Positions 3,616 to 23,802 of a stretch of 29,200 nt of DNA are shown here, piece by piece. The notes under the pieces are model-generated. The model did not search any database. It worked only from the letters and a program-made list of their open reading frames with translations, and was not told where the DNA came from. Every line of letters begins with the position of its first letter. Positions within the stretch are counted from its first letter, which is position 1. The translations under genes were made by a program, and so were the position numbers. The DNA is from a virus, in IMG/VR virus record IMGVR_UViG_3300042113_000560, positions 1 to 29,200 of that record. One strand, written 5' to 3'.

Positions 3616-3632
3616 CACCAAGGAGCACTGCC

Positions 3633-3890
3633 ATGGCCGGTGGTGAAGGGTTTGATCGCGAGCGGTTCCTGTTGCGCGCAGTGGCCGGGGTGTTCATCGC
3701 CCAATTCACGCTCTATGCCGCTGGCCTGGGCGGTTGCTTCTGGCTTGGTCTGCAGCGGCGGCTTGGCCCGGTGTGCAGCAGCTATGCCGAGAACCTGCAG
3801 CAGACGTTTGAGGCGGCGGTTGGCACCAGCCTGGCCTTGCTCGGTGGCGGCAGCATCGTCAGTGCCCGGCGCCGCGATCCAGACAACTGA
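3633..3890 (+). CDS. Small membrane protein, holin candidate (copy 1)
   Basis: An 85-aa protein with two hydrophobic stretches, roughly residues 16-40 (AVAGVFIAQFTLYAAG and on) and 61-77, separated by a short polar part, and a positively charged C-terminal tail (SARRRDPDN). It has one of the clearest Shine-Dalgarno sequences in the window, AAGGAG seven bases before the ATG. It follows the C39 peptidase by 17 bases on the same strand. Size, topology and neighbour fit a holin or holin-like partner of an endolysin, but no family signature is recognised, so the role is inferred from context. Confidence 0.6.
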   Translation: MAGGEGFDRERFLLRAVAGVFIAQFTLYAAGLGGCFWLGLQRRLGPVCSSYAENLQQTFEAAVGTSLALLGGGSIVSARRRDPDN

Positions 3891-3912
3891 ACCAGGCTGG
3901 CCGCAGCGCTGA

Positions 3913-3931
3913 GAACGGCCGCAGGCCGTTC
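3913..3931. terminator. Stem-loop between convergent genes (copy 1)
   Basis: GAACGGCC (3913-3920) and GGCCGTTC (3924-3931) form a perfect 8-bp stem with a GCA loop, between the ends of the rightward membrane gene and the leftward HD gene. No T-run follows in either direction, so termination would be weak or factor-dependent. Confidence 0.45.
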
Positions 3932-4604
3932 AAGGCTGGGGATGGGCCTCTGGCCGCTCCAGGTAGCTGGCGGCCCACACCGCCGGAGCGATGCCATGGG
4001 GCACCAGACGCCGGTAGGGCTCGCTGCTGAGCAGTTCCTGCACCGCTTCTGCCAGCAGGGCGGTGGAGCGACATTCCGGCAAGCGATGGCTCAGGGCCTG
4101 TTGCACGCGCAGTAGGTACCAGGCACTGCCCTCCAGCCCAGCCGTGAAACGCTCCCAGTCATTGGGGTTGCTGCGCGCATCGAGCACCAGGTCACGGGCG
4201 TTGTGGGCCTTGTCGGCTGCCGTCACCAGCAGAGAGGTCTGCGGCTTCTCCTCCAGTGAGGCGAGATAGCGGGTCTTGCGCAGCAGCCAAGGTTCCTTCT
4301 CGGCGCCGGGCTCCACGGGGCCAGCGGTGTCGGTGCAGTCCACCACGATCGCGGCGACCTCCTCGCCAAAGCGTGCGGTAATCGAGGCCTGGCTCTGGCC
4401 TGCATCCTCGATGGCGTCGTGCAGCAGACCCGCGATTGCCTGGTTTTCGCTGCCGCCGTCCTCCCACACCAGAGCACTCACGGCAATGAGGTGGGCGATG
4501 TAGGGAACCGGTTTGCCCTTGCGCCGCTGACCGCGGTGCAGCTCAGCCGCCCAGCCCAGGGCATCGGTGTAGCGCTGGCTGTGGGCGTTCTCAGGAGCCG
4601 TCAT
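3930..4604 (-). CDS. HD-domain hydrolase, SpoT/MESH1-like (copy 1)
   Basis: A 224-aa HD-superfamily protein resembling the (p)ppGpp-hydrolase domain of RelA/SpoT and small MESH1-type enzymes. The metal-binding pattern is visible: H23 in LHRGQRRKGKPVPYIAHL with H38, the H62-D63 pair in LLHDAIED with E66/D67 close by, and D131 in AADKAHNARD. FGEEVAAIVVDCTD and the KEPWLLRKTRYL segment also match that group. It should hydrolyse a nucleotide phosphate bond; the alarmone is the obvious substrate, but other nucleotides cannot be excluded. The start is ATG 4604, with a GTG two codons upstream as alternative. It is transcribed leftward, convergent with the holin candidate. In a phage it could remove starvation signals during infection (inference). 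Confidence 0.75.
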   Translation of the reverse strand: MTAPENAHSQRYTDALGWAAELHRGQRRKGKPVPYIAHLIAVSALVWEDGGSENQAIAGLLHDAIEDAGQSQASITARFGEEVAAIVVDCTDTAGPVEPGAEKEPWLLRKTRYLASLEEKPQTSLLVTAADKAHNARDLVLDARSNPNDWERFTAGLEGSAWYLLRVQQALSHRLPECRSTALLAEAVQELLSSEPYRRLVPHGIAPAVWAASYLERPEAHPQP

Positions 4605-4611
4605 CGCCACG

Positions 4612-4820
4612 TTCTACAGCCGGTGTTGCGGCTGCTGTCTCAACCTGGCCTCGGCAGCCATCCGGCCATGGGGTCGGCGAGGAATCACCAGCACTGCCCC
4701 GGAGCGCAGGGCTGCGCCCTGCTCGCCCCGCCCTGGCAAGGGCTGACGCGAGCCGCTGCGCGGCCCTTGCCAGGGCGTGTCGTCCGGGGCGATGGGACAG
4801 GTGTTCCTCGCCTCCGTCCC
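4612..4820 (+). promoter_or_regulatory. Structured leader with three hairpins (copy 1)
   Basis: The gap between the divergent HD and 71-aa genes holds three consecutive perfect inverted repeats: 4706-4722 (7-bp stem, 3-base loop), 4730-4776 (GCCCTGGCAAGGGC with its exact complement, 14-bp stem, 19-base loop) and 4792-4822 (ATGGGAC/GTCCCAT, 17-base loop). The last stem includes the first bases of the start codon of the 71-aa gene. A cis-acting leader or small RNA is inferred from structure only. Confidence 0.5.
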
Positions 4821-5036
4821 ATGGCCTCCTCTGCTCCTCTGGCCTGTCCGATCCGTCAGCTGGTGCTGCACAGCTACCCGGCTGGGCTCAAGGTCGCCGC
4901 TGCCGAGCGCGTCACGGTCTTCTATGGCCGCCGCGGCAAGCCCGTGAAGAAGCCGCGCTTCCTGCCAGCTGAGCTGGCCCATCAGCTGGCCCGCAAGCTG
5001 GCAGCCAAGCGCCTCGGCACCGTCTCGGTGCTCTGA
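4821..5036 (+). CDS. Small basic protein of unknown function (copy 1)
   Basis: A 71-aa protein starting at the ATG at 4821, at the end of a hairpin-rich leader. It has a short possible beta segment (IRQLVLHSYPAG, AERVTVFYGRRG) followed by a lysine/arginine-rich helix (HQLARKLAAKRLG). I recognise no family. The start choice is supported by the leader in front and by a good stem-loop terminator 15 bases after the stop, making it a stand-alone rightward transcription unit among leftward genes. The high basic content would suit nucleic-acid binding, but that is a guess. Confidence 0.5.
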   Translation: MASSAPLACPIRQLVLHSYPAGLKVAAAERVTVFYGRRGKPVKKPRFLPAELAHQLARKLAAKRLGTVSVL

Positions 5037-5050
5037 GGCGGCGGCCTTGT

Positions 5051-5072
5051 GGCCCGGCGTTGCCGGGCCTTT
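5051..5072 (+). terminator. Rho-independent-type terminator (copy 1)
   Basis: GGCCCGGC (5051-5058), loop GTT, GCCGGGCC (5062-5069), then TTT and a further T-rich stretch. It closes the rightward 71-aa gene. Confidence 0.65.
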
Positions 5073-5111
5073 CTGCCCTTTTCCAGCTCGTTGCCAAATC
5101 GGTGGCTGATT

Positions 5112-5396
5112 TCAAAGCCAGGGCCGGTAGCGGCTCCGTTGCCTGCGCGCTGCCGCACGAGCGGGAGCTGTGCCGAACTGGGGGCTGCTGCCATCACGGC
5201 GGCGCCGCACCCAAACGCCCTGTCGGATCAGGCGACGGTCGGCCTCATTGGCCTGCTGGATCGCCACCAAGCTGCCGTAGCCGGCTTTCTGCCTGGCCTG
5301 AGCACGATCCCTGGCCTGGCTGCGATTCAGCGCCGGTACCACGGTGGCAGTGGAGCGGCGGCTCCAGAAGGCCAGGTAGTAGTGCCAGCGCGTCAT
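5112..5396 (-). CDS. Small arginine-rich protein after the scaffold gene (copy 1)
   Basis: A 94-aa ORF that starts five bases after the stop of the scaffold-like gene on the same strand, the tight spacing expected in a phage head operon. It begins MTRWHYYLAFWSRR and is strongly basic, with RRRRDG near residue 60 and RQRSRYRPWL at the end. No family is recognised. Long ORFs arise easily at this G+C content, so its reality rests mainly on position and a plausible ATG. Confidence 0.45.
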   Translation of the reverse strand: MTRWHYYLAFWSRRSTATVVPALNRSQARDRAQARQKAGYGSLVAIQQANEADRRLIRQGVWVRRRRDGSSPQFGTAPARAAARRQRSRYRPWL

Positions 5397-5401
5397 GACG
5401 C

Positions 5402-6277
5402 TCAGCTGCGCGGGCTGCGGCCGTTGAGGGCAAAGCCGGCCCGGTAGAGCTCGCTGGCGCTCATCGCCTGCGGATTGATCACCTCCCCAAAACCGCTGGC
5501 ACCGAGGGTGCCGGCTGCAGTGCCCGCGGGCAAAGCGCCCGTGCCCATGGCGCCGCGCTGCTGGAACAGGAAGCCATACACGGGATGGATGCGCAGCTGA
5601 TCGAGGTAGTCGGCCGTGGTCATCGGCCGGCCGTCATCACCCAGCAGGGGCTGGCCCTGAGCGTCCAACGGTTCGAGAGCATCGCTGCCGTCCTTGCTGC
5701 TGCCAAGCCGGAAGCAGTCCCAGAGCATCGAGCGGAACACCTGAAAGAAGGTGCCGCGCCCATCGCCGCCGGTGCGCCCTTCCGCTTCTGAGAAGGCACG
5801 CTCCAGCAGCCGCTCTTTGCGCAGCTCTTGCACCCGCTCATGGGCGGCGTCGCGTTCAGCTGATACGGCGGCCACGCGTTTGGCGGCGGCCTCCTCCATC
5901 TGGCGCTCACGCAGCTCCAGCTGCTGCTCGAGGTGCTGCTTCTGGCGTTCGGCCTCCTGCAGGCGGGCGTACTCCTCGGGGTTGATCTCCGAGAAGCGGG
6001 TCAGCTGCTGCCGCAGCCCGCGCAGTTCCTTTTCGAGGTTGTTGCTGCGGCGGCGCTCGGCCTTGAGGGCTTCGCTGAGGCCAGCCCCACTGGAGCCATC
6101 GCCGCCGGATCCCTGGGTGGATTCATTGGCAGTGGTTGCAGCATCCGACCCAGTGCTGTGCTCGGCCTGAGTGCTGTCCTGCTCGCTGGCCTCCGGTTCA
6201 CGGAGGTCCAGCAAGTCGTTGCCATCACCCGCGTTTCGGGTCGTGCTCGTGTTGGGGGTTGCGGAAGCAGTGGCCAT
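5402..6277 (-). CDS. Head scaffold-like coiled-coil protein (copy 1)
   Basis: A 291-aa protein built like phage scaffolding proteins: a low-complexity acidic/Ser-Thr-rich N-terminus (1-65), a long charged coiled coil from about 68 to 162 (heptads rich in Glu, Arg, Leu, Gln), and a C-terminal part (170-291) ending in SASELYRAGFALNGRSPRS that could contact the coat protein. Scaffolds direct assembly of the capsid shell inside the procapsid and are then lost. It sits downstream of the portal and two head genes on the same strand, which is the standard place. Unusually, the capsid gene is not next but about 4.5 kb further left. A minor structural protein with a coiled coil is the alternative. Confidence 0.65.
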   Translation of the reverse strand: MATASATPNTSTTRNAGDGNDLLDLREPEASEQDSTQAEHSTGSDAATTANESTQGSGGDGSSGAGLSEALKAERRRSNNLEKELRGLRQQLTRFSEINPEEYARLQEAERQKQHLEQQLELRERQMEEAAAKRVAAVSAERDAAHERVQELRKERLLERAFSEAEGRTGGDGRGTFFQVFRSMLWDCFRLGSSKDGSDALEPLDAQGQPLLGDDGRPMTTADYLDQLRIHPVYGFLFQQRGAMGTGALPAGTAAGTLGASGFGEVINPQAMSASELYRAGFALNGRSPRS

Positions 6278-6362
6278 GACCCGTCTCGGCTGTCAGTGGG
6301 ATCGGCAGCCCATCGCGGCGCTGCCATCCCCTGTTGCCGAGATCAAGCGAGGCGGGAGTCAG

Positions 6363-6380
6363 CATGCGTTGCTACGCATG
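6363..6380. promoter_or_regulatory. Palindrome upstream of the secreted cargo gene (copy 1)
   Basis: CATGCGT-TGCT-ACGCATG is a perfect 7-bp inverted repeat in the 227-bp gap between the divergent scaffold and cargo genes; it could be an operator. A weak promoter-like pair (TTGCGC at 6450-6455, TATGAC at 6474-6479, 18-base spacer) lies downstream of it. Confidence 0.35.
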
Positions 6381-6504
6381 AATTCGGAGCACGAAGCTGC
6401 GCGTCTTACAAGGGGAACCTGCTAGATACGACAAGTAGAGAGGAAGGTATTGCGCAATCCTGCTTGCATCGGCTATGACTATGAATAAGCACTTTATGTA
6501 AGGC

Positions 6505-7191
6505 GTGAGACTGCCATTTCTAGCGATATTTCTTCTATTTGCCGCGCCGTTCCTGCCACACGCGGTCCACGCTGATCTAGACGGGGCTGACATAACAGGC
6601 CCCAATGGTCAAACAACGACCGGGCAAGCGTACGAAGCGCGCTGTGGCATCAAAAAAGAGAAGTGCACTGTCAGCTTCAAGGATGAGAAGTTGATCATCA
6701 ATGAAGGCGCGGGTATTTACCGCGATCAATTTGTTTCGGTGGTCCTCACAAGAGAGTGCACCCAAAGAGCCTTGTTAATGCCTTGGGTCACCAGTTGCTT
6801 TCAGAATCAGCTGGACTGGGATTTTACGATTACATACAGAGCGTCTGATGGCAGTCAAAGAGCGGCCCTGATTTCATTCATGCCCCGCTATTTCAATACA
6901 AATCCAACAGATATAGCCAGAGCCTTCGAGCGAGACCTCCAGATCTGGTCCGAGAATGTCCTTCGGCCAATAGGTCCATCCATCCAAATCGAGGCCCCAG
7001 GCAAGCCAGAAGCAAGGCCAAGCAGGAGGCCTTCTGCTGCTGCGCCAATCGTGTCATGCAAGCCTCCCTTAACCGATTACGATTGCAGCTGGAGCAAATA
7101 TCTTGTCGCGAATCCTTCTGTCTCTAACTGGGCCAAAGCAAACCCTCAGATGGCAGAGAAAGAGCGACTGAGATTGGGAGGGCTTGAATAG
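6505..7191 (+). CDS. Secreted protein of unknown function, low-G+C cargo gene (copy 1)
   Basis: A 228-aa protein with a clear signal peptide: MRLPFLAIFLLFAAPFLPHA followed by a VHA-D cleavage site near residue 23. The GTG at 6505 is the only reasonable start because an in-frame TAA lies at 6499. The mature protein has cysteines (EARCGIKKEKCTVSF, TRECTQ, TSCFQNQ, VSCKPPLTDYDCSW) and a proline/arginine-rich linker before the C-terminal part, suggesting an extracytoplasmic, disulfide-bonded protein. It reads against the surrounding head genes and has lower G+C (30 of 60 bases at 6841-6900, against 42 of 60 at 18001-18060), both signs of an acquired moron. No domain is recognised. Confidence 0.75.
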   Translation: MRLPFLAIFLLFAAPFLPHAVHADLDGADITGPNGQTTTGQAYEARCGIKKEKCTVSFKDEKLIINEGAGIYRDQFVSVVLTRECTQRALLMPWVTSCFQNQLDWDFTITYRASDGSQRAALISFMPRYFNTNPTDIARAFERDLQIWSENVLRPIGPSIQIEAPGKPEARPSRRPSAAAPIVSCKPPLTDYDCSWSKYLVANPSVSNWAKANPQMAEKERLRLGGLE

Positions 7192-7230
7192 CTCTTGCTT
7201 CTTGCGCGAAAATCAACCCTTAAAACACTC

Positions 7231-7824
7231 TCACAAAAGCCGATTCGGCTTGAGCGTCCCGAACACCCGCTCACCAATCAGCGGCTGCACCAGGGAGCCG
7301 ATGCCGCCGGAGCCGTAATCGGCGCCGAATTCCAGCACCACAAAGGCGGTGTGCTGGGCGTAGGGATCTACATCAGCAGCGCCCTCAGCGTTGAGCAGGC
7401 TGAGATCCCCCAGCCAGATCAGTCCCTCGCAGGGAGCCACAACGGTGCTGCTGAGCGCACCTCCCGGTGCGACGCTGCCACCGCTGGCAACGCGGCGGCC
7501 GTTCTGCTGCCAGCTCAAGGCGCTGCTCAGCCAGATGGCGCCCGGGTGAGGCGGCAGGCGGGTAGCCCGGCAGACCATGCCGCTGTAGGTGAAGTCGCCG
7601 GTGTCGACCCCAGGGCCGTTCTCCTTGGCGGAGATGTAGTTGGCGCGCACCAGAAAGCACTCGAGCACATGCGCCGCCACCACAGCAGAGGTGGTGTCAC
7701 CGGGGATGGCGTTCTCCGCCAGCAGCAGGCGTGCATTGGCAAACGGCTGCAATGGAGTTGCGGGCCAGGGCCCGGCCGCCTGTGGATGTTGGCCGCTGGT
7801 GAAACGCCTGGGGCTGGTGGTCAT
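7231..7824 (-). CDS. Head-associated structural protein candidate (copy 1)
   Basis: A 197-aa protein without an N-terminal signal. It has a proline-rich start (MTTSPRRFTSGQHPQAAGPW) and then alternating hydrophobic and glycine-rich segments likely to be beta-rich (VVAAHVLECFLVRANY, GDFTYSGMVCRATRLP, TVVAPCEGLIWLGDLSLL, HTAFVVLEFGADYG). It lies between the 175-aa gene downstream of the portal and the scaffold-like gene, three bases after the former, so it belongs to the head operon; a decoration, head-completion or minor capsid role is inferred from position. No family is recognised. The C-terminal codons form a small hairpin (AAGCCGAATCGGCTT on the minus strand) that might help end the transcript. 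Confidence 0.6.
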   Translation of the reverse strand: MTTSPRRFTSGQHPQAAGPWPATPLQPFANARLLLAENAIPGDTTSAVVAAHVLECFLVRANYISAKENGPGVDTGDFTYSGMVCRATRLPPHPGAIWLSSALSWQQNGRRVASGGSVAPGGALSSTVVAPCEGLIWLGDLSLLNAEGAADVDPYAQHTAFVVLEFGADYGSGGIGSLVQPLIGERVFGTLKPNRLL

Positions 7825-7827
7825 CGC

Positions 7828-8104
7828 TCAACCCCGCAGCATCGGCGTTGTTCCCAGCTGCCCTGTGGCCTGGGCGGTGAACTGCACCCAGCTGCTGAGC
7901 CCAGGCAGCAGCAACAGCAGCTGGTCGGCGTAGCGGCGCCGCTGACGCAGCAGTCCCATCGCGGGCGAACTGGGGTTGGCGTAGGTGGTTTCGCTCTCCT
8001 CGCGCAGGAGCGCCGTGTCGTAGGCGATCACATCTGCTTTCTGCAGGGGTGCATCACCAGCAGCGGCGACCGAGCCGGCGATCGGCCCCGAGTGGCTGCG
8101 CTTC
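7828..8104 (-). pseudogene. Truncated copy of the 175-aa head gene
   Basis: This is the 3' part of the gene found intact at 12789-13316. The first 84 codons or so are missing because copy 1 of the duplication ends at 8104 and runs into the inverted IS-derived piece. The reading frame stays open a little into that piece, so a chimeric product could be made, but the native start is lost. Confidence 0.85.
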
Positions 8105-8258: not shown

Positions 8259-8576
8259 CTGACCGCCAACTTCGCCACCAATGGCCAGCGCGCAACGCTG
8301 GAGGAGCAGATCCATCTGGGCCGGCCAGTTGCGGTGGGCTGGCTGCACCACGGCCCCGCCTCAGCCCCCAGCGGCGGTGGTCATTGGAGCGTGGTGATCG
8401 GTTTCACCGAGGCCGCCGCCATCCACAACGACCCCAATGGTGAGGCCGACCTGGTCCATGGCGGCTACACCGCCAACACCAATGGGGCAGGGCAGCACTA
8501 CAGCTGGAAGAACTGGCTGCCGCGCTGGCAGGCCGATGGCCCTGGCACCGGCTGGCTGCTCACCTGCCATCCCTGA
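8259..8576 (+). pseudogene. C39 peptidase fragment lacking the catalytic cysteine
   Basis: Codons 144-248 of the peptidase at 2869-3615. The histidine (GGGHWSVV) and HNDPNG motifs remain but the cysteine motif is gone, so it cannot be an active peptidase. A GTG at 8334 could still start an 80-aa C-terminal piece. Confidence 0.88.
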
Positions 8577-8593
8577 CACCAAGGAGCACTGCC

Positions 8594-8851
8594 ATGGCCG
8601 GTGGTGAAGGGTTTGATCGCGAGCGGTTCCTGTTGCGCGCAGTGGCCGGGGTGTTCATCGCCCAATTCACGCTCTATGCCGCTGGCCTGGGCGGTTGCTT
8701 CTGGCTTGGTCTGCAGCGGCGGCTTGGCCCGGTGTGCAGCAGCTATGCCGAGAACCTGCAGCAGACGTTTGAGGCGGCGGTTGGCACCAGCCTGGCCTTG
8801 CTCGGTGGCGGCAGCATCGTCAGTGCCCGGCGCCGCGATCCAGACAACTGA
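8594..8851 (+). CDS. Small membrane protein, holin candidate (copy 2)
   Basis: Identical in sequence to the gene at 3633, including its AAGGAG ribosome binding site. Here it lacks an intact peptidase partner upstream. Transcription could come instead from the transposase promoter carried, pointing right, in the inverted fragment at 8101-8258. If both copies are expressed, holin dosage and therefore lysis timing would change (inference). Confidence 0.58.
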   Translation: MAGGEGFDRERFLLRAVAGVFIAQFTLYAAGLGGCFWLGLQRRLGPVCSSYAENLQQTFEAAVGTSLALLGGGSIVSARRRDPDN

Positions 8852-8873
8852 ACCAGGCTGGCCGCAGCGCTGA

Positions 8874-8892
8874 GAACGGCCGCAGGCCGTTC
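8874..8892. terminator. Stem-loop between convergent genes (copy 2)
   Basis: Same 8-bp GAACGGCC/GGCCGTTC hairpin with GCA loop as at 3913-3931. Confidence 0.45.
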
Positions 8893-9565
8893 AAGGCTGG
8901 GGATGGGCCTCTGGCCGCTCCAGGTAGCTGGCGGCCCACACCGCCGGAGCGATGCCATGGGGCACCAGACGCCGGTAGGGCTCGCTGCTGAGCAGTTCCT
9001 GCACCGCTTCTGCCAGCAGGGCGGTGGAGCGACATTCCGGCAAGCGATGGCTCAGGGCCTGTTGCACGCGCAGTAGGTACCAGGCACTGCCCTCCAGCCC
9101 AGCCGTGAAACGCTCCCAGTCATTGGGGTTGCTGCGCGCATCGAGCACCAGGTCACGGGCGTTGTGGGCCTTGTCGGCTGCCGTCACCAGCAGAGAGGTC
9201 TGCGGCTTCTCCTCCAGTGAGGCGAGATAGCGGGTCTTGCGCAGCAGCCAAGGTTCCTTCTCGGCGCCGGGCTCCACGGGGCCAGCGGTGTCGGTGCAGT
9301 CCACCACGATCGCGGCGACCTCCTCGCCAAAGCGTGCGGTAATCGAGGCCTGGCTCTGGCCTGCATCCTCGATGGCGTCGTGCAGCAGACCCGCGATTGC
9401 CTGGTTTTCGCTGCCGCCGTCCTCCCACACCAGAGCACTCACGGCAATGAGGTGGGCGATGTAGGGAACCGGTTTGCCCTTGCGCCGCTGACCGCGGTGC
9501 AGCTCAGCCGCCCAGCCCAGGGCATCGGTGTAGCGCTGGCTGTGGGCGTTCTCAGGAGCCGTCAT
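8891..9565 (-). CDS. HD-domain hydrolase, SpoT/MESH1-like (copy 2)
   Basis: Second, identical 224-aa gene. All metal-binding residues noted for the copy at 3930-4604 are present (H23, H38, H62-D63, D131), so both copies should be functional. The neighbourhood is also the same on both sides: convergent with the membrane gene on the left and divergent from the hairpin leader on the right. The GTG at 9571 is an alternative start. Confidence 0.75.
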   Translation of the reverse strand: MTAPENAHSQRYTDALGWAAELHRGQRRKGKPVPYIAHLIAVSALVWEDGGSENQAIAGLLHDAIEDAGQSQASITARFGEEVAAIVVDCTDTAGPVEPGAEKEPWLLRKTRYLASLEEKPQTSLLVTAADKAHNARDLVLDARSNPNDWERFTAGLEGSAWYLLRVQQALSHRLPECRSTALLAEAVQELLSSEPYRRLVPHGIAPAVWAASYLERPEAHPQP

Positions 9566-9572
9566 CGCCACG

Positions 9573-9781
9573 TTCTACAGCCGGTGTTGCGGCTGCTGTC
9601 TCAACCTGGCCTCGGCAGCCATCCGGCCATGGGGTCGGCGAGGAATCACCAGCACTGCCCCGGAGCGCAGGGCTGCGCCCTGCTCGCCCCGCCCTGGCAA
9701 GGGCTGACGCGAGCCGCTGCGCGGCCCTTGCCAGGGCGTGTCGTCCGGGGCGATGGGACAGGTGTTCCTCGCCTCCGTCCC
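9573..9781 (+). promoter_or_regulatory. Structured leader with three hairpins (copy 2)
   Basis: Stems at 9667-9683, 9691-9704 with 9724-9737, and 9753-9759 with 9777-9783. The last covers the ATG of the 71-aa gene, so opening of this stem could control its translation. Confidence 0.5.
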
Positions 9782-9997
9782 ATGGCCTCCTCTGCTCCTC
9801 TGGCCTGTCCGATCCGTCAGCTGGTGCTGCACAGCTACCCGGCTGGGCTCAAGGTCGCCGCTGCCGAGCGCGTCACGGTCTTCTATGGCCGCCGCGGCAA
9901 GCCCGTGAAGAAGCCGCGCTTCCTGCCAGCTGAGCTGGCCCATCAGCTGGCCCGCAAGCTGGCAGCCAAGCGCCTCGGCACCGTCTCGGTGCTCTGA
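9782..9997 (+). CDS. Small basic protein of unknown function (copy 2)
   Basis: Identical to the 71-aa gene at 4821-5036, with the same leader and terminator, so the whole transcription unit is duplicated. The C-terminal helix carries most of the positive charge. Function unknown. Confidence 0.5.
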   Translation: MASSAPLACPIRQLVLHSYPAGLKVAAAERVTVFYGRRGKPVKKPRFLPAELAHQLARKLAAKRLGTVSVL

Positions 9998-10011
9998 GGC
10001 GGCGGCCTTGT

Positions 10012-10033
10012 GGCCCGGCGTTGCCGGGCCTTT
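10012..10033 (+). terminator. Rho-independent-type terminator (copy 2)
   Basis: GGCCCGGC-GTT-GCCGGGCC followed by TTT, 14 bases after the stop of the 71-aa gene. Confidence 0.65.
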
Positions 10034-10072
10034 CTGCCCTTTTCCAGCTCGTTGCCAAATCGGTGGCTGATT

Positions 10073-10357
10073 TCAAAGCCAGGGCCGGTAGCGGCTCCGT
10101 TGCCTGCGCGCTGCCGCACGAGCGGGAGCTGTGCCGAACTGGGGGCTGCTGCCATCACGGCGGCGCCGCACCCAAACGCCCTGTCGGATCAGGCGACGGT
10201 CGGCCTCATTGGCCTGCTGGATCGCCACCAAGCTGCCGTAGCCGGCTTTCTGCCTGGCCTGAGCACGATCCCTGGCCTGGCTGCGATTCAGCGCCGGTAC
10301 CACGGTGGCAGTGGAGCGGCGGCTCCAGAAGGCCAGGTAGTAGTGCCAGCGCGTCAT
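10073..10357 (-). CDS. Small arginine-rich protein after the scaffold gene (copy 2)
   Basis: Same 94-aa ORF as at 5112-5396. In this copy it belongs to the uninterrupted operon portal, 175-aa, 197-aa, scaffold-like, 94-aa, and so is the one most likely to be expressed with the head genes. Confidence 0.45.
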   Translation of the reverse strand: MTRWHYYLAFWSRRSTATVVPALNRSQARDRAQARQKAGYGSLVAIQQANEADRRLIRQGVWVRRRRDGSSPQFGTAPARAAARRQRSRYRPWL

Positions 10358-10362
10358 GACGC

Positions 10363-11238
10363 TCAGCTGCGCGGGCTGCGGCCGTTGAGGGCAAAGCCGG
10401 CCCGGTAGAGCTCGCTGGCGCTCATCGCCTGCGGATTGATCACCTCCCCAAAACCGCTGGCACCGAGGGTGCCGGCTGCAGTGCCCGCGGGCAAAGCGCC
10501 CGTGCCCATGGCGCCGCGCTGCTGGAACAGGAAGCCATACACGGGATGGATGCGCAGCTGATCGAGGTAGTCGGCCGTGGTCATCGGCCGGCCGTCATCA
10601 CCCAGCAGGGGCTGGCCCTGAGCGTCCAACGGTTCGAGAGCATCGCTGCCGTCCTTGCTGCTGCCAAGCCGGAAGCAGTCCCAGAGCATCGAGCGGAACA
10701 CCTGAAAGAAGGTGCCGCGCCCATCGCCGCCGGTGCGCCCTTCCGCTTCTGAGAAGGCACGCTCCAGCAGCCGCTCTTTGCGCAGCTCTTGCACCCGCTC
10801 ATGGGCGGCGTCGCGTTCAGCTGATACGGCGGCCACGCGTTTGGCGGCGGCCTCCTCCATCTGGCGCTCACGCAGCTCCAGCTGCTGCTCGAGGTGCTGC
10901 TTCTGGCGTTCGGCCTCCTGCAGGCGGGCGTACTCCTCGGGGTTGATCTCCGAGAAGCGGGTCAGCTGCTGCCGCAGCCCGCGCAGTTCCTTTTCGAGGT
11001 TGTTGCTGCGGCGGCGCTCGGCCTTGAGGGCTTCGCTGAGGCCAGCCCCACTGGAGCCATCGCCGCCGGATCCCTGGGTGGATTCATTGGCAGTGGTTGC
11101 AGCATCCGACCCAGTGCTGTGCTCGGCCTGAGTGCTGTCCTGCTCGCTGGCCTCCGGTTCACGGAGGTCCAGCAAGTCGTTGCCATCACCCGCGTTTCGG
11201 GTCGTGCTCGTGTTGGGGGTTGCGGAAGCAGTGGCCAT
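10363..11238 (-). CDS. Head scaffold-like coiled-coil protein (copy 2)
   Basis: Identical to the protein at 5402-6277. This copy is in line with an intact portal and 175-aa head gene upstream on the same strand, though the rightward cargo gene at 11466-12152 lies between, so it may need its own promoter in the 11239-11465 gap. Confidence 0.65.
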   Translation of the reverse strand: MATASATPNTSTTRNAGDGNDLLDLREPEASEQDSTQAEHSTGSDAATTANESTQGSGGDGSSGAGLSEALKAERRRSNNLEKELRGLRQQLTRFSEINPEEYARLQEAERQKQHLEQQLELRERQMEEAAAKRVAAVSAERDAAHERVQELRKERLLERAFSEAEGRTGGDGRGTFFQVFRSMLWDCFRLGSSKDGSDALEPLDAQGQPLLGDDGRPMTTADYLDQLRIHPVYGFLFQQRGAMGTGALPAGTAAGTLGASGFGEVINPQAMSASELYRAGFALNGRSPRS

Positions 11239-11323
11239 GACCCGTCTCGGCTGTCAGTGGGATCGGCAGCCCATCGCGGCGCTGCCATCCCCTGTTGCCG
11301 AGATCAAGCGAGGCGGGAGTCAG

Positions 11324-11341
11324 CATGCGTTGCTACGCATG
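11324..11341. promoter_or_regulatory. Palindrome upstream of the secreted cargo gene (copy 2)
   Basis: Second copy of the CATGCGT-TGCT-ACGCATG inverted repeat seen at 6363-6380. Confidence 0.35.
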
Positions 11342-11465
11342 AATTCGGAGCACGAAGCTGCGCGTCTTACAAGGGGAACCTGCTAGATACGACAAGTAGA
11401 GAGGAAGGTATTGCGCAATCCTGCTTGCATCGGCTATGACTATGAATAAGCACTTTATGTAAGGC

Positions 11466-12152
11466 GTGAGACTGCCATTTCTAGCGATATTTCTTCTATT
11501 TGCCGCGCCGTTCCTGCCACACGCGGTCCACGCTGATCTAGACGGGGCTGACATAACAGGCCCCAATGGTCAAACAACGACCGGGCAAGCGTACGAAGCG
11601 CGCTGTGGCATCAAAAAAGAGAAGTGCACTGTCAGCTTCAAGGATGAGAAGTTGATCATCAATGAAGGCGCGGGTATTTACCGCGATCAATTTGTTTCGG
11701 TGGTCCTCACAAGAGAGTGCACCCAAAGAGCCTTGTTAATGCCTTGGGTCACCAGTTGCTTTCAGAATCAGCTGGACTGGGATTTTACGATTACATACAG
11801 AGCGTCTGATGGCAGTCAAAGAGCGGCCCTGATTTCATTCATGCCCCGCTATTTCAATACAAATCCAACAGATATAGCCAGAGCCTTCGAGCGAGACCTC
11901 CAGATCTGGTCCGAGAATGTCCTTCGGCCAATAGGTCCATCCATCCAAATCGAGGCCCCAGGCAAGCCAGAAGCAAGGCCAAGCAGGAGGCCTTCTGCTG
12001 CTGCGCCAATCGTGTCATGCAAGCCTCCCTTAACCGATTACGATTGCAGCTGGAGCAAATATCTTGTCGCGAATCCTTCTGTCTCTAACTGGGCCAAAGC
12101 AAACCCTCAGATGGCAGAGAAAGAGCGACTGAGATTGGGAGGGCTTGAATAG
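11466..12152 (+). CDS. Secreted protein of unknown function, low-G+C cargo gene (copy 2)
   Basis: Identical to the gene at 6505-7191, with the same GTG start, signal peptide and cysteine pattern. It is inserted between the 197-aa head gene and the scaffold-like gene, on the opposite strand, so it splits what would otherwise be a continuous head operon. Two copies could double the amount of secreted product in a lysogen. Confidence 0.75.
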   Translation: MRLPFLAIFLLFAAPFLPHAVHADLDGADITGPNGQTTTGQAYEARCGIKKEKCTVSFKDEKLIINEGAGIYRDQFVSVVLTRECTQRALLMPWVTSCFQNQLDWDFTITYRASDGSQRAALISFMPRYFNTNPTDIARAFERDLQIWSENVLRPIGPSIQIEAPGKPEARPSRRPSAAAPIVSCKPPLTDYDCSWSKYLVANPSVSNWAKANPQMAEKERLRLGGLE

Positions 12153-12191
12153 CTCTTGCTTCTTGCGCGAAAATCAACCCTTAAAACACTC

Positions 12192-12785
12192 TCACAAAAG
12201 CCGATTCGGCTTGAGCGTCCCGAACACCCGCTCACCAATCAGCGGCTGCACCAGGGAGCCGATGCCGCCGGAGCCGTAATCGGCGCCGAATTCCAGCACC
12301 ACAAAGGCGGTGTGCTGGGCGTAGGGATCTACATCAGCAGCGCCCTCAGCGTTGAGCAGGCTGAGATCCCCCAGCCAGATCAGTCCCTCGCAGGGAGCCA
12401 CAACGGTGCTGCTGAGCGCACCTCCCGGTGCGACGCTGCCACCGCTGGCAACGCGGCGGCCGTTCTGCTGCCAGCTCAAGGCGCTGCTCAGCCAGATGGC
12501 GCCCGGGTGAGGCGGCAGGCGGGTAGCCCGGCAGACCATGCCGCTGTAGGTGAAGTCGCCGGTGTCGACCCCAGGGCCGTTCTCCTTGGCGGAGATGTAG
12601 TTGGCGCGCACCAGAAAGCACTCGAGCACATGCGCCGCCACCACAGCAGAGGTGGTGTCACCGGGGATGGCGTTCTCCGCCAGCAGCAGGCGTGCATTGG
12701 CAAACGGCTGCAATGGAGTTGCGGGCCAGGGCCCGGCCGCCTGTGGATGTTGGCCGCTGGTGAAACGCCTGGGGCTGGTGGTCAT
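12192..12785 (-). CDS. Head-associated structural protein candidate (copy 2)
   Basis: Identical to the 197-aa gene at 7231-7824. Here the upstream 175-aa gene is intact and ends three bases before this ATG, and portal precedes it, which confirms membership of the head operon. Confidence 0.62.
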   Translation of the reverse strand: MTTSPRRFTSGQHPQAAGPWPATPLQPFANARLLLAENAIPGDTTSAVVAAHVLECFLVRANYISAKENGPGVDTGDFTYSGMVCRATRLPPHPGAIWLSSALSWQQNGRRVASGGSVAPGGALSSTVVAPCEGLIWLGDLSLLNAEGAADVDPYAQHTAFVVLEFGADYGSGGIGSLVQPLIGERVFGTLKPNRLL

Positions 12786-12788
12786 CGC

Positions 12789-13316
12789 TCAACCCCGCAG
12801 CATCGGCGTTGTTCCCAGCTGCCCTGTGGCCTGGGCGGTGAACTGCACCCAGCTGCTGAGCCCAGGCAGCAGCAACAGCAGCTGGTCGGCGTAGCGGCGC
12901 CGCTGACGCAGCAGTCCCATCGCGGGCGAACTGGGGTTGGCGTAGGTGGTTTCGCTCTCCTCGCGCAGGAGCGCCGTGTCGTAGGCGATCACATCTGCTT
13001 TCTGCAGGGGTGCATCACCAGCAGCGGCGACCGAGCCGGCGATCGGCCCCGAGTGGCTGCGCTTCTGGATCGCCTGCTCCTGCTCACAGCCACCGGCTAG
13101 CAGCTGCTGATCGATCAGGGCCACCGCATCCAGTAGGGCGCGGGCGCTCAATACCCCGGCCGGGTGTTGGCGCAGTAGATCCGCCATCGCCCGCCCGATG
13201 GCATCCAGACAGGGAACGGTGGCGGGCAGCGCCAGACACTGGCGGATGGCCTCCTGGTCTTGCGGTTGCCACGTCGCACCACCTGGCGCGCTGGGCATGT
13301 TGCTGCTGATGGTCAT
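12789..13316 (-). CDS. Head protein downstream of portal, function unknown
   Basis: The only intact copy of this 175-aa gene. The ATG at 13316 overlaps the portal stop as ATGA, which fixes the start (an upstream extension of 13 codons is open but lies inside portal). The N-terminal half is helical and rich in Ala/Leu/Gln (QEAIRQCLALPATVPCLDAI, LLRQHPAGVLSARALLDAV), the C-terminal half contains a charged helix (GLLRQRRRYADQLLLLLPGL). No family recognised; position suggests a connector or minor head protein. The duplication junction at 13065 lies about codon 84. Confidence 0.65.
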   Translation of the reverse strand: MTISSNMPSAPGGATWQPQDQEAIRQCLALPATVPCLDAIGRAMADLLRQHPAGVLSARALLDAVALIDQQLLAGGCEQEQAIQKRSHSGPIAGSVAAAGDAPLQKADVIAYDTALLREESETTYANPSSPAMGLLRQRRRYADQLLLLLPGLSSWVQFTAQATGQLGTTPMLRG

Positions 13317-15638: not shown

Positions 15639-16606
15639 ATGAATGCCAGTCGCCCGCCAAGAGCTTTTTCTCGTACGCATGGGAGAGCACTGAGCTCAAA
15701 TCTTGGGTCAAGCTTCTCTCCACGCGTCTTCGACAAGATGGGGTTGAGGTATTGCTTGATCAGTGGGCTGTCGCCCCAGGAGATCAGCTCCCTTCATTCA
15801 TGGAGAGCGCAATAAGAGATAATGATTTTGCGGTGATAATTTGCACGCCCACCTATAAGATGAAATCAGAAAGGCGCGAAGGTGGCGTCGGCTACGAGGG
15901 AGGCATCATCACGGGAGAGGTTCTTCAGCTAAGAAACAATCGCAAGTTTATTCCTGTTCTTAAGCTTGCGGACTGGAAGACGGCTTCGCCGAGCTGGCTG
16001 CAAGGCAGGTATTACATTGATCTTCGCGGCACCCCCTATAGCGAAGAGCACTATCAGGATCTTCTTGTAACTCTCCTTGGCAACAGGGAGACAGCTCCTG
16101 CAGTTGGGATGCAAGCTGAAACTCGCAAGGCAGTAGAAGCGGATACTGCAGGGGAATTTGCCAATGTTCCACCGGCAACAAGAAGGCCTTCGCCTTTAAA
16201 GATTATTGGAATAATAGCTGATCAAGTTTCTGCGCCAAGGAATGACGGGACCCCCGGCAGCGCTCTATACCGTATTCCCTTCAGGCTGTCACAAAGGCCG
16301 TCTCAGTTCTGGGCAGAGGCTTTTGTAAGGGCTTGGAATATGCCTCCTCAGTTCACGTCAATGCACAGGCCCGGCATTGCAAGAGTTATCGGCAATACCA
16401 TCGTCCTCAATGGGACAACACTTGACGAGGTGGAGAAATATCATCGAGACACCTTGAGGCTCTGCGTCAGGGAAGCAAACAACAGTGAGGAGTCACATGC
16501 GGAAGAGCAGGAAAGGCGTTTCAATGAGGCAATTAGGAAAGAGGCTCAGTGTCGAAAGCAGGTCTCGGATGCCGCCAGCCGAATCCGGTTTGATGATGAT
16601 GGCTAG
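15639..16606 (+). CDS. SEFIR/TIR-domain protein with apparent frameshift near the start
   Basis: About 322 aa if repaired. The N-terminal domain shows SEFIR/TIR boxes: AKSFFSYAWES (from 15656), GVEVLLDQWAVAPGDQL (15740 on), and FAVIICTPTYKMKSERR followed by GGVGYEGGIITGEVL with a conserved-type glutamate. Such domains signal or degrade NAD+ in bacterial immunity. The C-terminal half (IPFRLSQRPSQFWAEAFVRAWN, MHRPGIARVIGNTIVLNGTTLDEVEKYHRDTL) looks like a separate conserved domain of unknown role. The domain frame has no ATG, GTG or TTG before 15752, which would delete box 1. ATG 15639 reads MNASRP and would join the domain frame if one base were added at the CCC near 15652. So either a 1-base deletion, a sequencing error or an unusual start. 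The uninterrupted part is 15752-16606. Confidence 0.68.
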
Positions 16607-20210: not shown

Positions 20211-20915
20211 TCACCAAGGCCGAAAGCGGCTCACGTAGCCCGCCCACGCCGCTGCCCAAGCCGCCAGGCACTCCTCGCGGGAGTACAGCGGTGAGAAGCG
20301 CGTCTCGCCCGGCCGGGCCCAGATCGTTTGGCCGGCGTCGTAGTGCACGCCCCAGGTCGCCTCCAGGGCCATGTAGCCGCCCAGCTGGGCGCGGGTGCAG
20401 TAACTGCCGGAGCCGGGTCGCGAGAGGGTCTTGAGGTCGGCGAGCACCCGCAGGCCGTTGGCGTGCTGGATGTAGCCGGTGTCGTAGGTGCCGGCCAGGT
20501 TGCGGACCAGGCAGCAGGTGGGCCGCTCTGAGGCGATCACCGTCACCTGCTGCCAGTGGGGGTGGGCCAGCAGCGGCTCGATCCAGGCCCGGTAGTCCGA
20601 GTCCCGCAGCTCCTCAAGCAGCTGGGCCGCCTGCTGCCGGTTGCGGGGCTGCGGATGGAAGCGGCTGTGCAGCAGGGCCTCCAGGGCCAGGTGCACGGTG
20701 TGGCCCCGCGGCTCCCAGACGTGGCGAGTGGCTTCGATGCGGGCCATCGCCCAGTCGCTCTTGGCTGAGCCGACCACGCCGGTGATCGACACCGCGAACA
20801 GGTGCTCCCCCAGCCAGTAGCGGTGCTCCGGGTCGGTGCGCCGCAGGCCGGGGATGGAGCCAAGCCACGCACCGGCTGCAGCGGGGAGAGAGCTGGTTGA
20901 TGCGGACATCGCCAT
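20211..20915 (-). CDS. RecB/Cas4-like PD-(D/E)XK nuclease
   Basis: A 234-aa nuclease-fold protein. The expected order of motifs is visible: GHTVHLALEALL (71-82), VIASERP (127-132), AGTYDTGY with D145 as first metal ligand, VLADLKT with D160-x-K162 as the D/E-x-K motif, and QLGGY (Q177, Y181) of RecB-type nucleases. Phage relatives are 5'-3' exonucleases used with a recombinase, or endonucleases processing replication products; no annealing recombinase is visible next to it. ATG 20915 is used, with GTG 20918 just upstream. It is the first gene left of the repeat-rich gap and is read in the same direction as the primase-helicase. Confidence 0.7.
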   Translation of the reverse strand: MAMSASTSSLPAAAGAWLGSIPGLRRTDPEHRYWLGEHLFAVSITGVVGSAKSDWAMARIEATRHVWEPRGHTVHLALEALLHSRFHPQPRNRQQAAQLLEELRDSDYRAWIEPLLAHPHWQQVTVIASERPTCCLVRNLAGTYDTGYIQHANGLRVLADLKTLSRPGSGSYCTRAQLGGYMALEATWGVHYDAGQTIWARPGETRFSPLYSREECLAAWAAAWAGYVSRFRPW

Positions 20916-20918
20916 CAC

Positions 20919-21282
20919 CAGAGCCTCACGTGAAGCACTAAAAACTTGTGATTCTTTAGAACCCGTTGCGGCGCAGGGGATCTAGGGAGATTTGGAACGC
21001 CTGAAACTTTGTGATTCTTGTGGAACCCTTGCGGCGCAACGGGTTCACAAGTTTCTAGGTTGTTTCTACCCGCCGCGGAGCGTAAGAACGCCTGCGCTGG
21101 AGGGGGTTTCAAAGTTTCCGAAGTTTCCAGCCCTCTTGTGCGCTGGAGGAAGAGGGCACCAGCCCCGGTGAGGGGCAGAGAGGCCCCCCAAGAATCACAA
21201 GTTTCCAGGTTGTTTCCGGCTGCCATGAAGCGCGGGAATGCTTGCCCTGGAAGGGCTCCACAAGAATCCGAAGTTTCCATCC
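20919..21282. repeat. Repeat-rich gap, candidate phage replication origin
   Basis: 364 bp between the nuclease and primase-helicase genes. A core AAGTTTC/GAAACTT (or one-base variants) occurs about seven times, near 20941, 21004, 21049, 21112, 21121, 21200 and 21270. Two units starting near 20941 and 21004 share AACTTGTGATTCTT-like and GAACCC-TTGCGGCGCA parts in direct orientation; two longer ones starting near 21045 and 21195 share CACAAGTTTC-AGGTTGTTTC and then a diverged 40-base tail in the opposite orientation. Iterons of this sort next to a primase-helicase suggest an origin. A 131-codon leftward ORF (20915-21310) covers the gap but encodes only the repeats. Confidence 0.5.
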
Positions 21283-23802
21283 CTAGAGTTCGAACTCCCG
21301 TGCCAGCCATTCCGCACCGGCTGCACTGAGGCCATAGCGCAGGTAGTAGCTCTGGCTGCCGGTGGAAACGCGGGTGGTTGTCACCAGGCCGTCGAGCTTC
21401 CCGAGAAACCGCCCGAGGGTCTTGTAAGAGCTCAGGGCCTCACCCTCAAGCTCTCTCATCAGCCGAGCCTCCGACGGCGCCAGGTCAATGGCCTGCAGCA
21501 GCTCCAGTAGGCCTACCCCGGCCCGGCCATTGGTGTGCAGGGCCTGGAGATAGCGCAGGGCCTCTTTCTGCTTGTCGCTCGCCTTCCGCACCCGTTGGGC
21601 GGCGCGATCCAGATCGCTCTCCTGCTCCTGTTGCTCCTGCAGGTCGTCGTAGGTGCCGAGCCTTGAGAAGGTGCCGGTGTTGCCGTCGGTGGACACCACA
21701 AGATCCGCCGGCGGGCCTGAGCGGGCCTCGCGCACCAGGCGCCGCTGGGGCGAGTCCTTGATCAGCCGGTTGCCCTTGGCCAGGTAGTGGAGGGTGAGGA
21801 TCGTGTTGGCGGCACCGGCAATGGCGTTGTGACCCGAGAGGGCCTCGGTGCCGGTGGTGTCGTTGGCCTTGTTGCAGTGATGGATCAGCAGCAAGGTGCC
21901 GCCGGCATCGGTGATCTGGTGCTTGAGGTCGTAGATCAGCGAACCCATCTCCGGGTCGTTCTCGCCAAAGCAGCAGCTGCGGGTGATCGAGCGCAGCGAA
22001 TCGAGGATCACCACCGCGCCGGGATGGGCGGCCAGGCAGGCGAGCAGGGCATCGAGGTTGGCCTCGGTGGCGCGAAAGCGTCGTGACCACAGCAGCAACG
22101 GGTGATCCCAGATCCCCAGCTGCTGCAGCATCTGGGCGGTGTCGCCATCGCCCTGGTCATCGGTCACCAGGATCACCGGCCGCGGGGCATCCGGTGCCCC
22201 GAACCCGAGAAAGTCCTCGGCGCAGAGCAGGCAGCGGGCCAGGGCATGCACCAGCCGCGTCTTGCCCACCTTGGCCCGCCCGCCCACGATCGAGAGATCG
22301 CGACGGGGAATGCAACCCGGGATCTCCCACTCCACAACAGGTTGCGGCATCGCCAGGCGCTCGGCCTGATCGAGGCCGCGGAAGCGGTTGCCGTTGCGCT
22401 GGTCGTGGGCCTCAAGGATCAGCTGGCCGATCTCCTGCAGCCGCAGGGCCGTCTTGAGTTGGAGGGCGGCATGGGCCTCGCGCACGCGGGCTGAACGGCG
22501 CAGGCTGTTGCGCTCACGGCCCACCAGGGAACGGATGCAGTGCTCCAAGGCATTGAGGCGACGGTTGATCGGTAGGTGCACCTTTCCCCAGCGCACCCGG
22601 GTGTCGGGCCTGGGCGAGAAGCGCTGCGGGCCAGCGCCAGCGCCAGCTCCCCTGCTGCCCCTGGCGTTGCTGCCGCTGGTGCGGTCACTGCTCTTGCCAC
22701 CGGGATGGCGTCCGCCGGTGTCGTTCTGGTTTCGGTGGCTGCCTGCAGCCTGAGCCCCGGGAGGCCTGGGGGTGTGGGCCGGCTCTGGCGGCAGCCAGCC
22801 GTGCTGACGGGCGTGGAACCAGAAGGTCGCCGCGCCGATCTGCTCACCACCAGAGCTGGCCACCTGGCGGATGTCCCAGCCGCAGCTGGCGGAAGGGCTA
22901 TGGGCCTCCATCAGGGCGATCGCCAGCTCTCGGTCATGGCCGGCCTGCTGGCAGGCCTGGATCAGGCCCCAGAGGATGTTGCGGTAGTCGGCGTAGGTGT
23001 TGCTGCCGGCCACCCGGCGGGGGATGGCAGCCAGGGCAGTGCGGATCTGATCGAGCGGCCGCGGCGGCCCGAAGTCTTCATCGCCCAGCTCGGGCAGCGG
23101 AATGCCAGTACCTGGGCCCTCGTTGGGTTGCTCCAAGGGGATGGCGTGCTGCGGCGGCGGGTCTGCAGCGGGTTCGGCAAACTCATCGGGCAGCAGCGCC
23201 AGGGCGATGTCATCCGGCGAGTAGCGCTGGCCGCTCACGTGCACCAGCTCCACCACTGCGGTGGGCTCACCGCTGGCGTCGACATACCAGCAGCCGGGCA
23301 GGCGCATCACCCGCGAGGAGTCCTTGCAATGGGGATCGCCGCCGGCGTAGGCGATCAGCTCCGCCTGCAGCGGTGCCCACTCCTGCGGCGGGATGGGCTG
23401 CTCCAGCAGCCAGTAGCAGTGGGCCGATTTGCCGCCGCTGAGCACGATCAGCGAGGGCTCGGGCAGCCCCAGCTCCCGCCAGGCGTTCAGCTGCCAGTCG
23501 ATCGGCCGGTCGTCCCATTCCACAAAGAACGCCCGGCAGGCGTTGATCTCACGCTTGCTGTCGCCGCCGTCGTTGATCACCAGGTAGACGCCGCGGCCTT
23601 CCCGCTGCCACTGCTCAGCCGCCTCCAGATCAAAGGGGCCTTTGCGAGCCCCGATCCGACCCTTGGCTGGGTTGGCGCGGTGGGGGAAAGCTCGCAGCCG
23701 GGCGCTGGCGGGGTCCTTGCCCAGCAGGGAGAGGAACTGATTGGCGGCGGCGCGGTCGATGCGTGCCTGCGTAGGGGCAGCGGCCGGCTCAGCGCTGGCC
23801 AT
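21283..23802 (-). CDS. Primase-helicase replication protein
   Basis: An 839-aa protein joining priming and unwinding. Residues 70-180 look like a RepB-type archaeo-eukaryotic primase domain: AFFVEWDD (91-98) gives the metal-binding acids and SGGKSAHCYW (122-131) the conserved His motif. Residues 250-335 (IPRRVAGSNTYADYRNILWG and on) match a primase C-terminal domain of the PriCT_2 kind. A low-complexity Gly/Arg/Ser linker (345-400) leads to a RecA-like ATPase with Walker A GGRAKVGKT (507-515), Walker B VVILDS (597-602) and LLLIHHCNK (637-645). The tail (740-839) contains winged-helix-like segments. It overlaps the upstream ribbon-helix-helix gene by 14 bases, so both are probably one operon. 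Full length, ATG start. Confidence 0.88.
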   Translation of the reverse strand: MASAEPAAAPTQARIDRAAANQFLSLLGKDPASARLRAFPHRANPAKGRIGARKGPFDLEAAEQWQREGRGVYLVINDGGDSKREINACRAFFVEWDDRPIDWQLNAWRELGLPEPSLIVLSGGKSAHCYWLLEQPIPPQEWAPLQAELIAYAGGDPHCKDSSRVMRLPGCWYVDASGEPTAVVELVHVSGQRYSPDDIALALLPDEFAEPAADPPPQHAIPLEQPNEGPGTGIPLPELGDEDFGPPRPLDQIRTALAAIPRRVAGSNTYADYRNILWGLIQACQQAGHDRELAIALMEAHSPSASCGWDIRQVASSGGEQIGAATFWFHARQHGWLPPEPAHTPRPPGAQAAGSHRNQNDTGGRHPGGKSSDRTSGSNARGSRGAGAGAGPQRFSPRPDTRVRWGKVHLPINRRLNALEHCIRSLVGRERNSLRRSARVREAHAALQLKTALRLQEIGQLILEAHDQRNGNRFRGLDQAERLAMPQPVVEWEIPGCIPRRDLSIVGGRAKVGKTRLVHALARCLLCAEDFLGFGAPDAPRPVILVTDDQGDGDTAQMLQQLGIWDHPLLLWSRRFRATEANLDALLACLAAHPGAVVILDSLRSITRSCCFGENDPEMGSLIYDLKHQITDAGGTLLLIHHCNKANDTTGTEALSGHNAIAGAANTILTLHYLAKGNRLIKDSPQRRLVREARSGPPADLVVSTDGNTGTFSRLGTYDDLQEQQEQESDLDRAAQRVRKASDKQKEALRYLQALHTNGRAGVGLLELLQAIDLAPSEARLMRELEGEALSSYKTLGRFLGKLDGLVTTTRVSTGSQSYYLRYGLSAAGAEWLAREFEL

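Follow-up and report, generated by a model that had tools for sequence, protein, structure and literature searches.

The question raised by this locus is whether the repeat-rich stretch between a primase-helicase gene and a nuclease gene is a replication origin, as an earlier note on the sequence had proposed, or whether the repeats encode a peptide, which the note named as the competing reading. The window, that is, the whole stretch of DNA analyzed, is a 29.2-kb virus record, with relatives in the genomes of picocyanobacteria that include Cyanobium, Synechococcus and Vulcanococcus. The minus strand of the record carries, in order, the primase-helicase gene (23802-21283), the repeat stretch (21282-20919), a PD-(D/E)XK nuclease gene (20918-20211; weak PDDEXK_1 match and a PHROG exonuclease match), a RusA-like gene and the terminase genes. 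The repeat stretch thus begins directly after the primase-helicase gene, as had been stated, and the same gene order was kept in close relatives with contigs of sufficient length. Elsewhere in the record there is an exact direct duplication of 4807 bp (3298-8104 and 8259-13065, a lag of 4961 bp), which is either a true duplication or an assembly artefact. An IS5-family transposase (1757-2740; NF033581, 355 bits) lies near the left edge of the duplicated region. The TIR_2 domain protein encoded at 15752-16606, for which the best PADLOC match was bSEFIR (E 4e-40), is likely the product of an anti-phage defence gene borne by the element.

About seven copies of an AAGTTTC/GAAACTT core, direct and inverted, had been noticed over 364 bp, and the recount gave six exact copies and a near copy, AAAACTT, at 20941. 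GAAACTT was found 10 times in the window, where 1.09 occurrences are expected; six of these fall within 20919-21282 and four in the other 28.8 kb. The two pairs of longer imperfect repeats were also recovered, at 21045-21134 and 21195-21284 (90 nt, 74% identical) and at 20938-20975 and 21001-21038 (38 nt, 79%), and the array holds inverted repeat pairs as well. An 8-mer repeat score, based on repeat pairs, was 63.5 for the 364-bp array, as compared with a mean of 8.26 (sd 6.35) for 1442 windows of the same record and a mean of 3.9 (maximum 18) for 500 dinucleotide shuffles. Outside the array, the score did not exceed 31.5 anywhere in the window. No match was obtained when the array was used as a DNA query against 50,697 phage records.

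While the 7-mer core is real, the repeating unit is better described as a 9-bp word, GRANNCTTN, often present as two or three copies in tandem. The autocorrelation at lag 9 was raised in all 13 arrays tested (z 2.5 to 7.7), with lags 8 and 10 also raised in the window type. The best tandem triplet of the window array was not above control stretches, 28% of which scored equal or higher; the signal is carried by many dispersed imperfect copies, not by one perfect array. Read on the minus strand, the layout consists of four leftward sites followed by two inverted sites. The minus-strand sites are site 1 (21252-21278; GGAAACTTC GGATTCTTG TGGAGCCCT), site 2 (21180-21206; GGAAACTTG TGATTCTTG GGGGGCCTC), site 3 (21102-21128; GGAAACTTC GGAAACTTT GAAACCCCC) and the degenerate site 4 (21039-21056; AGAAACTTG TGAACCCGT). 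Site 5 (21002-21028; TGAAACTTT GTGATTCTTGTGGAACCC) and site 6 (20940-20966; AAAAACTTG TGATTCTTT AGAACCCGT) are inverted and lie on the plus strand. The six full-length arrays of the window type, which are 85-95% identical, aligned without a single indel across 371 columns, and site 6 is invariant in all of them. The sites were more conserved than the spacers, with 131 of 155 and 130 of 195 columns invariant, respectively (Fisher p 1e-4).

Conservation among close relatives was evaluated in a set of 19 primases, comprising that of the window and 18 others 85-96% identical to it. The layout persists throughout this set while the 9-bp word differs, being GGAAACTT in type A, the type of the window, GGATTCTT in type B and NNTTCTTT in type C. 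The distance from arm to arm also differs between the types, from 1 to tens of nucleotides. The type labels were first assigned by eye, and clustering of array k-mers agreed for 18 of the 19. The exception, L034, has a mosaic array, B-like in its first part and C-like in its second, and a winged helix of type C. In L032 the array diverges from the rest some 80 nt short of the contig end, and the contig of L038 ends inside the array. Left out of the set were genes with no usable array (L037 and L061, in which the frame leaves the family past residue 801, and L062, past residue 796), genes interrupted by the end of the contig (L040, L041, L066 and L067) and identical duplicates of rows that were kept. 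In L037 (near 3518) and L062 (near 3880) the primase gene leaves the family inside the winged helix and the array is absent; the other copy in the strain of L037 (L042) is intact and of type A. By the 8-mer score, seven of eight close-family arrays reached or exceeded the 95th percentile for the locus in which they lie, and L063 fell short of it (10%). A further element, CACGTGAGG at 20924-20932 on the minus strand, is kept with no more than a single change in every full-length array of types A, B and C and is probably the ribosome-binding leader of the nuclease.

The analysis was extended to more distant relatives. Primases at about 62% identity (L012 and L013) are accompanied by near-perfect 9-bp triplets of TGGATTCCC, both direct and inverted. 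Among more distant initiators, 11 of 28 exceeded the 95th percentile of controls by the 8-mer score, uncorrected, and a downstream array is not universal in this group. In L016, L018, L025 and their kin, three tandem 11-bp CGAAGGCAAAT units begin a few bases past the end of the primase-helicase gene, and inverted copies lie farther downstream. When contigs were chosen instead by a nuclease about 60% identical (58-62%), the initiator upstream was often another protein, with other repeats in the same place. Examples of the repeats that precede such nucleases are GGTTGGTT in L143, CTGCTGAAC in L144, CCGGACAA in L137 and TGATCACATGG in L135. Two of the four initiator-replaced groups were clearly above controls by 8-mer repeats. 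A best-triplet score separated L012, L013, L016, L079 and L085 from controls, as well as L135, L137, L143 and L144 of the nuclease set, the top match of L137 being a CCCACC run and not its CCGGACAA words. L008 and L058 were not separated by this score (26% and 69% of controls as high).

The proposed initiator is the 839-residue primase-helicase (21283-23802, minus strand), which consists of an AEP primase-polymerase, an AAA_25 domain and a C-terminal winged helix. The N-terminus resembles the AEP domain of the cyanophage S-2L PrimPol (PDB 6zp9, residues 14-172, E 1e-34), the closest solved relative, with 41% identity over residues 15-336. The helicase part was assigned to AAA_25 (PF13481) with 72.9 bits, and no SF3 helicase family was matched in Pfam. 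The earlier description of the primase as RepB-type was not borne out, there being no RepB family match in Pfam, PHROGs or NCBIfam at E 0.01. A full-length structure model was set aside (mean pLDDT 46). The model of the C-terminal part is a winged helix with a pLDDT of about 90 in that part, backed by 15 sequences that are all closely related. Its PDB matches, among them DNA complexes of MepR and of archaeal Orc1, have modest Foldseek E-values, the best being 0.013, and VIA Z scores of at most 9.4. The predicted recognition helix comprises residues 788-801 (21400-21441, minus strand).

The type of the array tracks the sequence of this domain. Over residues 771-839 (21286-21492, minus strand), the identity was 0.914 between primases of the same array type and 0.784 between those of different types. 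The corresponding values elsewhere in the primase were 0.886 and 0.888 for residues 1-350, 0.924 and 0.921 for 351-700, and 0.901 and 0.892 for 701-770. For the nuclease beyond the array they were 0.822 and 0.802, in a test that covered 15 of the 19 loci (the script identified no nuclease for L057, and L032, L034 and L038 had been left out). The same-type excess of 0.124 in residues 771-839 was equalled in none of 5000 label permutations, and the excess was about 0 elsewhere. The Mantel correlation of array k-mers with protein was 0.78 for this segment and 0.09-0.26 for the others. A weaker association is nevertheless present upstream (p 0.03 for residues 736-770; Mantel p 0.016 for 351-700). 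Seven amino-acid columns are diagnostic of type in the 19 primases, namely residues 782, 791, 794, 801, 802, 813 and 815, all within 782-815, as compared with none of the 254 variable columns in 1-770. In the predicted model, all seven lie in or beside three elements: the recognition helix, the short helix ahead of it and the first strand of the wing. The association can be seen within a single strain: Cyanobium FGCU52 carries two close elements of different types, L032 (A) and L033 (B), whose primases are 97.5% identical in residues 1-770 and 73.9% identical in 771-839.

The possibility was considered that word and winged helix merely hitch-hike in one recombination tract, with no functional pairing between them. 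The two are adjacent, and at the nucleotide level the diagnostic sites comprise six silent or other changes and five amino-acid changes, the silent ones falling in residues 772-811. Since silent sites are diagnostic too, a linked tract exists and the association is in part plain linkage. However, the diagnostic residues cluster on the predicted DNA-contact elements, with none in residues 816-839, which are closer to the array, and the nuclease on the other side has only two diagnostic nucleotides of 400 variable ones, both in the first 16 aligned codons beside the array. The placing of the amino-acid changes suggests that the linked tract is also functional, and hitch-hiking as the whole explanation is considered unlikely. 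The reading of the repeats as a conserved peptide fared worse. The leftward open reading frame that spans the array does exist (20915-21310, minus strand), and, as had been reported, its stop overlaps with the start of the nuclease gene at 20918. Every close array has some rightmost frame that is open across it, and an inner frame that begins at an ATG just past the primase gene runs open for 121 codons in all six full-length window-type arrays. This inner frame also has the lowest pN/pS of all six frames, 0.58 as compared with 0.61 for the next lowest; openness of a frame is therefore indecisive by itself. The codon positions, in contrast, are flat, the differences at the first, second and third positions in five comparisons numbering 65/77/87 in the array frame, as against 216/143/883 for the primase and 18/12/131 for the last 121 primase codons; 71% of the changes in the primase of the same genomes are at third positions. 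The ATG of the window ORF itself is followed by TGA at codon 5 in five of seven window-type relatives. The end-anchored frame of types B and C lacks a conserved start, and its differences are spread evenly over the codon phases. The array frame is shifted by 1-nt indels in L036, from Synechococcus sp. WH 5701, in L035, from Cyanobium Cruz-8D1, and in L034. No family in Pfam or PHROGs was matched. The comparison of relatives suggested in the earlier note thus found the repeats and their layout kept and the peptide not; from the codon-position, start and indel tests the ORF was judged not to be coding, and the peptide reading, which is highly improbable, was rejected.

The main rival is that the array is an operator, by which the winged helix or another regulator controls the nuclease and downstream genes while replication begins elsewhere. 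The array does lie just ahead of the nuclease start within a leftward run of genes, and covariation of word and domain would look identical. Against this, a scan of 20800-21400 found no sigma-70-like promoter or terminator, and six multi-word sites at fixed spacing over 364 bp are more than an operator needs. The place right after the initiator gene and the joint replacement of initiator and repeats ahead of a retained nuclease are also better suited to an origin, so that an operator is judged quite unlikely. Alternatively, the functional element could be a DNA stem-loop instead of linear words, as proposed for pRN1, whose origin was mapped to a 100-bp stem-loop immediately past the gene of a primase-helicase that carries a winged helix at its C-terminus (PMC4234260). 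Pairing is feasible between direct sites and the inverted sites that follow them, and the array strand folds better than shuffled sequences (z -3.6). However, the repeats alone account for this folding score, and on that ground a stem-loop was rejected as the main element. With four sites in one orientation and two in the other, moreover, there are direct sites left without a partner, and these keep the word all the same; the arm distance of 1 to tens of nucleotides between types is likewise difficult to reconcile with a stem-loop, which is accordingly thought improbable.

The reading of the array as an iteron origin of the prophage, bound by its own primase-helicase, with winged helix and array exchanged as one cassette, is favored. 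The array covaries only with the winged-helix end, the result expected if that protein reads the origin. The origin reading is very probably correct, and the proposal of the earlier note is supported to that extent. As in iteron origins, copies of a short word occupy an intergenic stretch next to the initiator gene, and the words are conserved as DNA rather than as codons. An AT-rich element beside the iterons is common in such origins, although not universal; none was found here, no 30-bp bin from 20851 to 21360 exceeding 60% AT. The GC-skew check that had been suggested showed no turning point at the array. In the proposed mechanism, the C-terminal winged helix, encoded just before the array, would bind the 9-bp words, and the four leftward and two inverted sites would load the helicase domain, which would open the DNA for priming by the AEP domain. 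The opposed sites could load helicases in both directions. The winged helix and the array would evolve and recombine as a cassette of about 570 bp.

The model is patterned on SaPI Rep and SCCmec Cch2, in both of which the C-terminal domain reads downstream iterons, and on pRN1, in which the origin follows the primase-helicase gene; the array and its initiator may work like these replicons. Phage P4 alpha is also a fused primase-helicase, whose C-terminal DNA-binding part binds short iterons, direct and inverted, in ori and crr. By this description P4 alpha resembles the window protein in its fusion and in the C-terminal iteron reading proposed here, and differs in its bacterial-type primase. 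SaPI Rep is described as an initiator helicase whose C-terminal domain recognizes iterons directly downstream of its gene, and the C-terminal domain of Cch2 is said to bind direct repeats that lie past its helicase gene (PMC7581432). The likeness to SaPI Rep would lie in the C-terminal reading of iterons directly downstream. Unlike SaPI, the window combines an AEP primase and an AAA_25 helicase in one protein and has 9-bp words that are mostly tandem, and its winged helix and array appear to be swapped as a cassette between near-identical initiators. Cch2 is similar in its C-terminal domain and downstream repeats at a putative origin; it differs in having three 5-nt iterons and a separate polymerase, with no fused AEP domain. 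The pRN1 protein orf904 combines AEP primase, helicase and C-terminal winged helix, with an essential origin directly downstream that is described as a stem-loop without iterons (PMC4234260). Both the AEP domain and the C-terminal winged helix are found in the window primase-helicase; the pRN1 helicase is SF3 in contrast to AAA_25 here, and the window protein, which may work alike, is not filed as a member of that family. Two 9-bp words in tandem, with different letters, can be made out in each arm of the pRN1 stem-loop origin (L148, 5031-5350) and of its pRN2 counterpart (L149, 1-220); the lag-9 excess is weak (p 0.03 each) and is a lead only. The S-2L PrimPol differs from the window protein in its helicase part, which has been described as VirE-like, resembling the papillomavirus helicase (PMC8065100). 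Its gene is followed by a 359-nt gene-free stretch with a marginal 8-mer score, 21.0 against a 95th percentile of 20.5.

In the literature searched, which largely excluded subscription journals, no description of the origin of this prophage family was found. What sets this locus apart from an ordinary iteron array is that the origin word and the domain that would read it have apparently been swapped together among otherwise near-identical replication proteins. If winged helix and array move as one cassette, closely related prophages come to bear different origin words, and the one strain with two close elements, FGCU52, does carry two different types. It is conceivable, and not far from an even call, that the cassette constitutes a natural recognition code that sets origin specificity among near-identical prophage initiators, in which case related prophages could share a cell without sharing origins, much like plasmid incompatibility groups. 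If the reading is true, it identifies both the origin and the initiator in a family of picocyanobacterial prophages and supplies a set of near-identical initiators in which few residues on the DNA-reading surface differ while the words that they read differ. The choice of sequence by a winged helix, and a change of origin specificity without loss of function, would then become directly testable with a handful of residues or a single 570-bp cassette.
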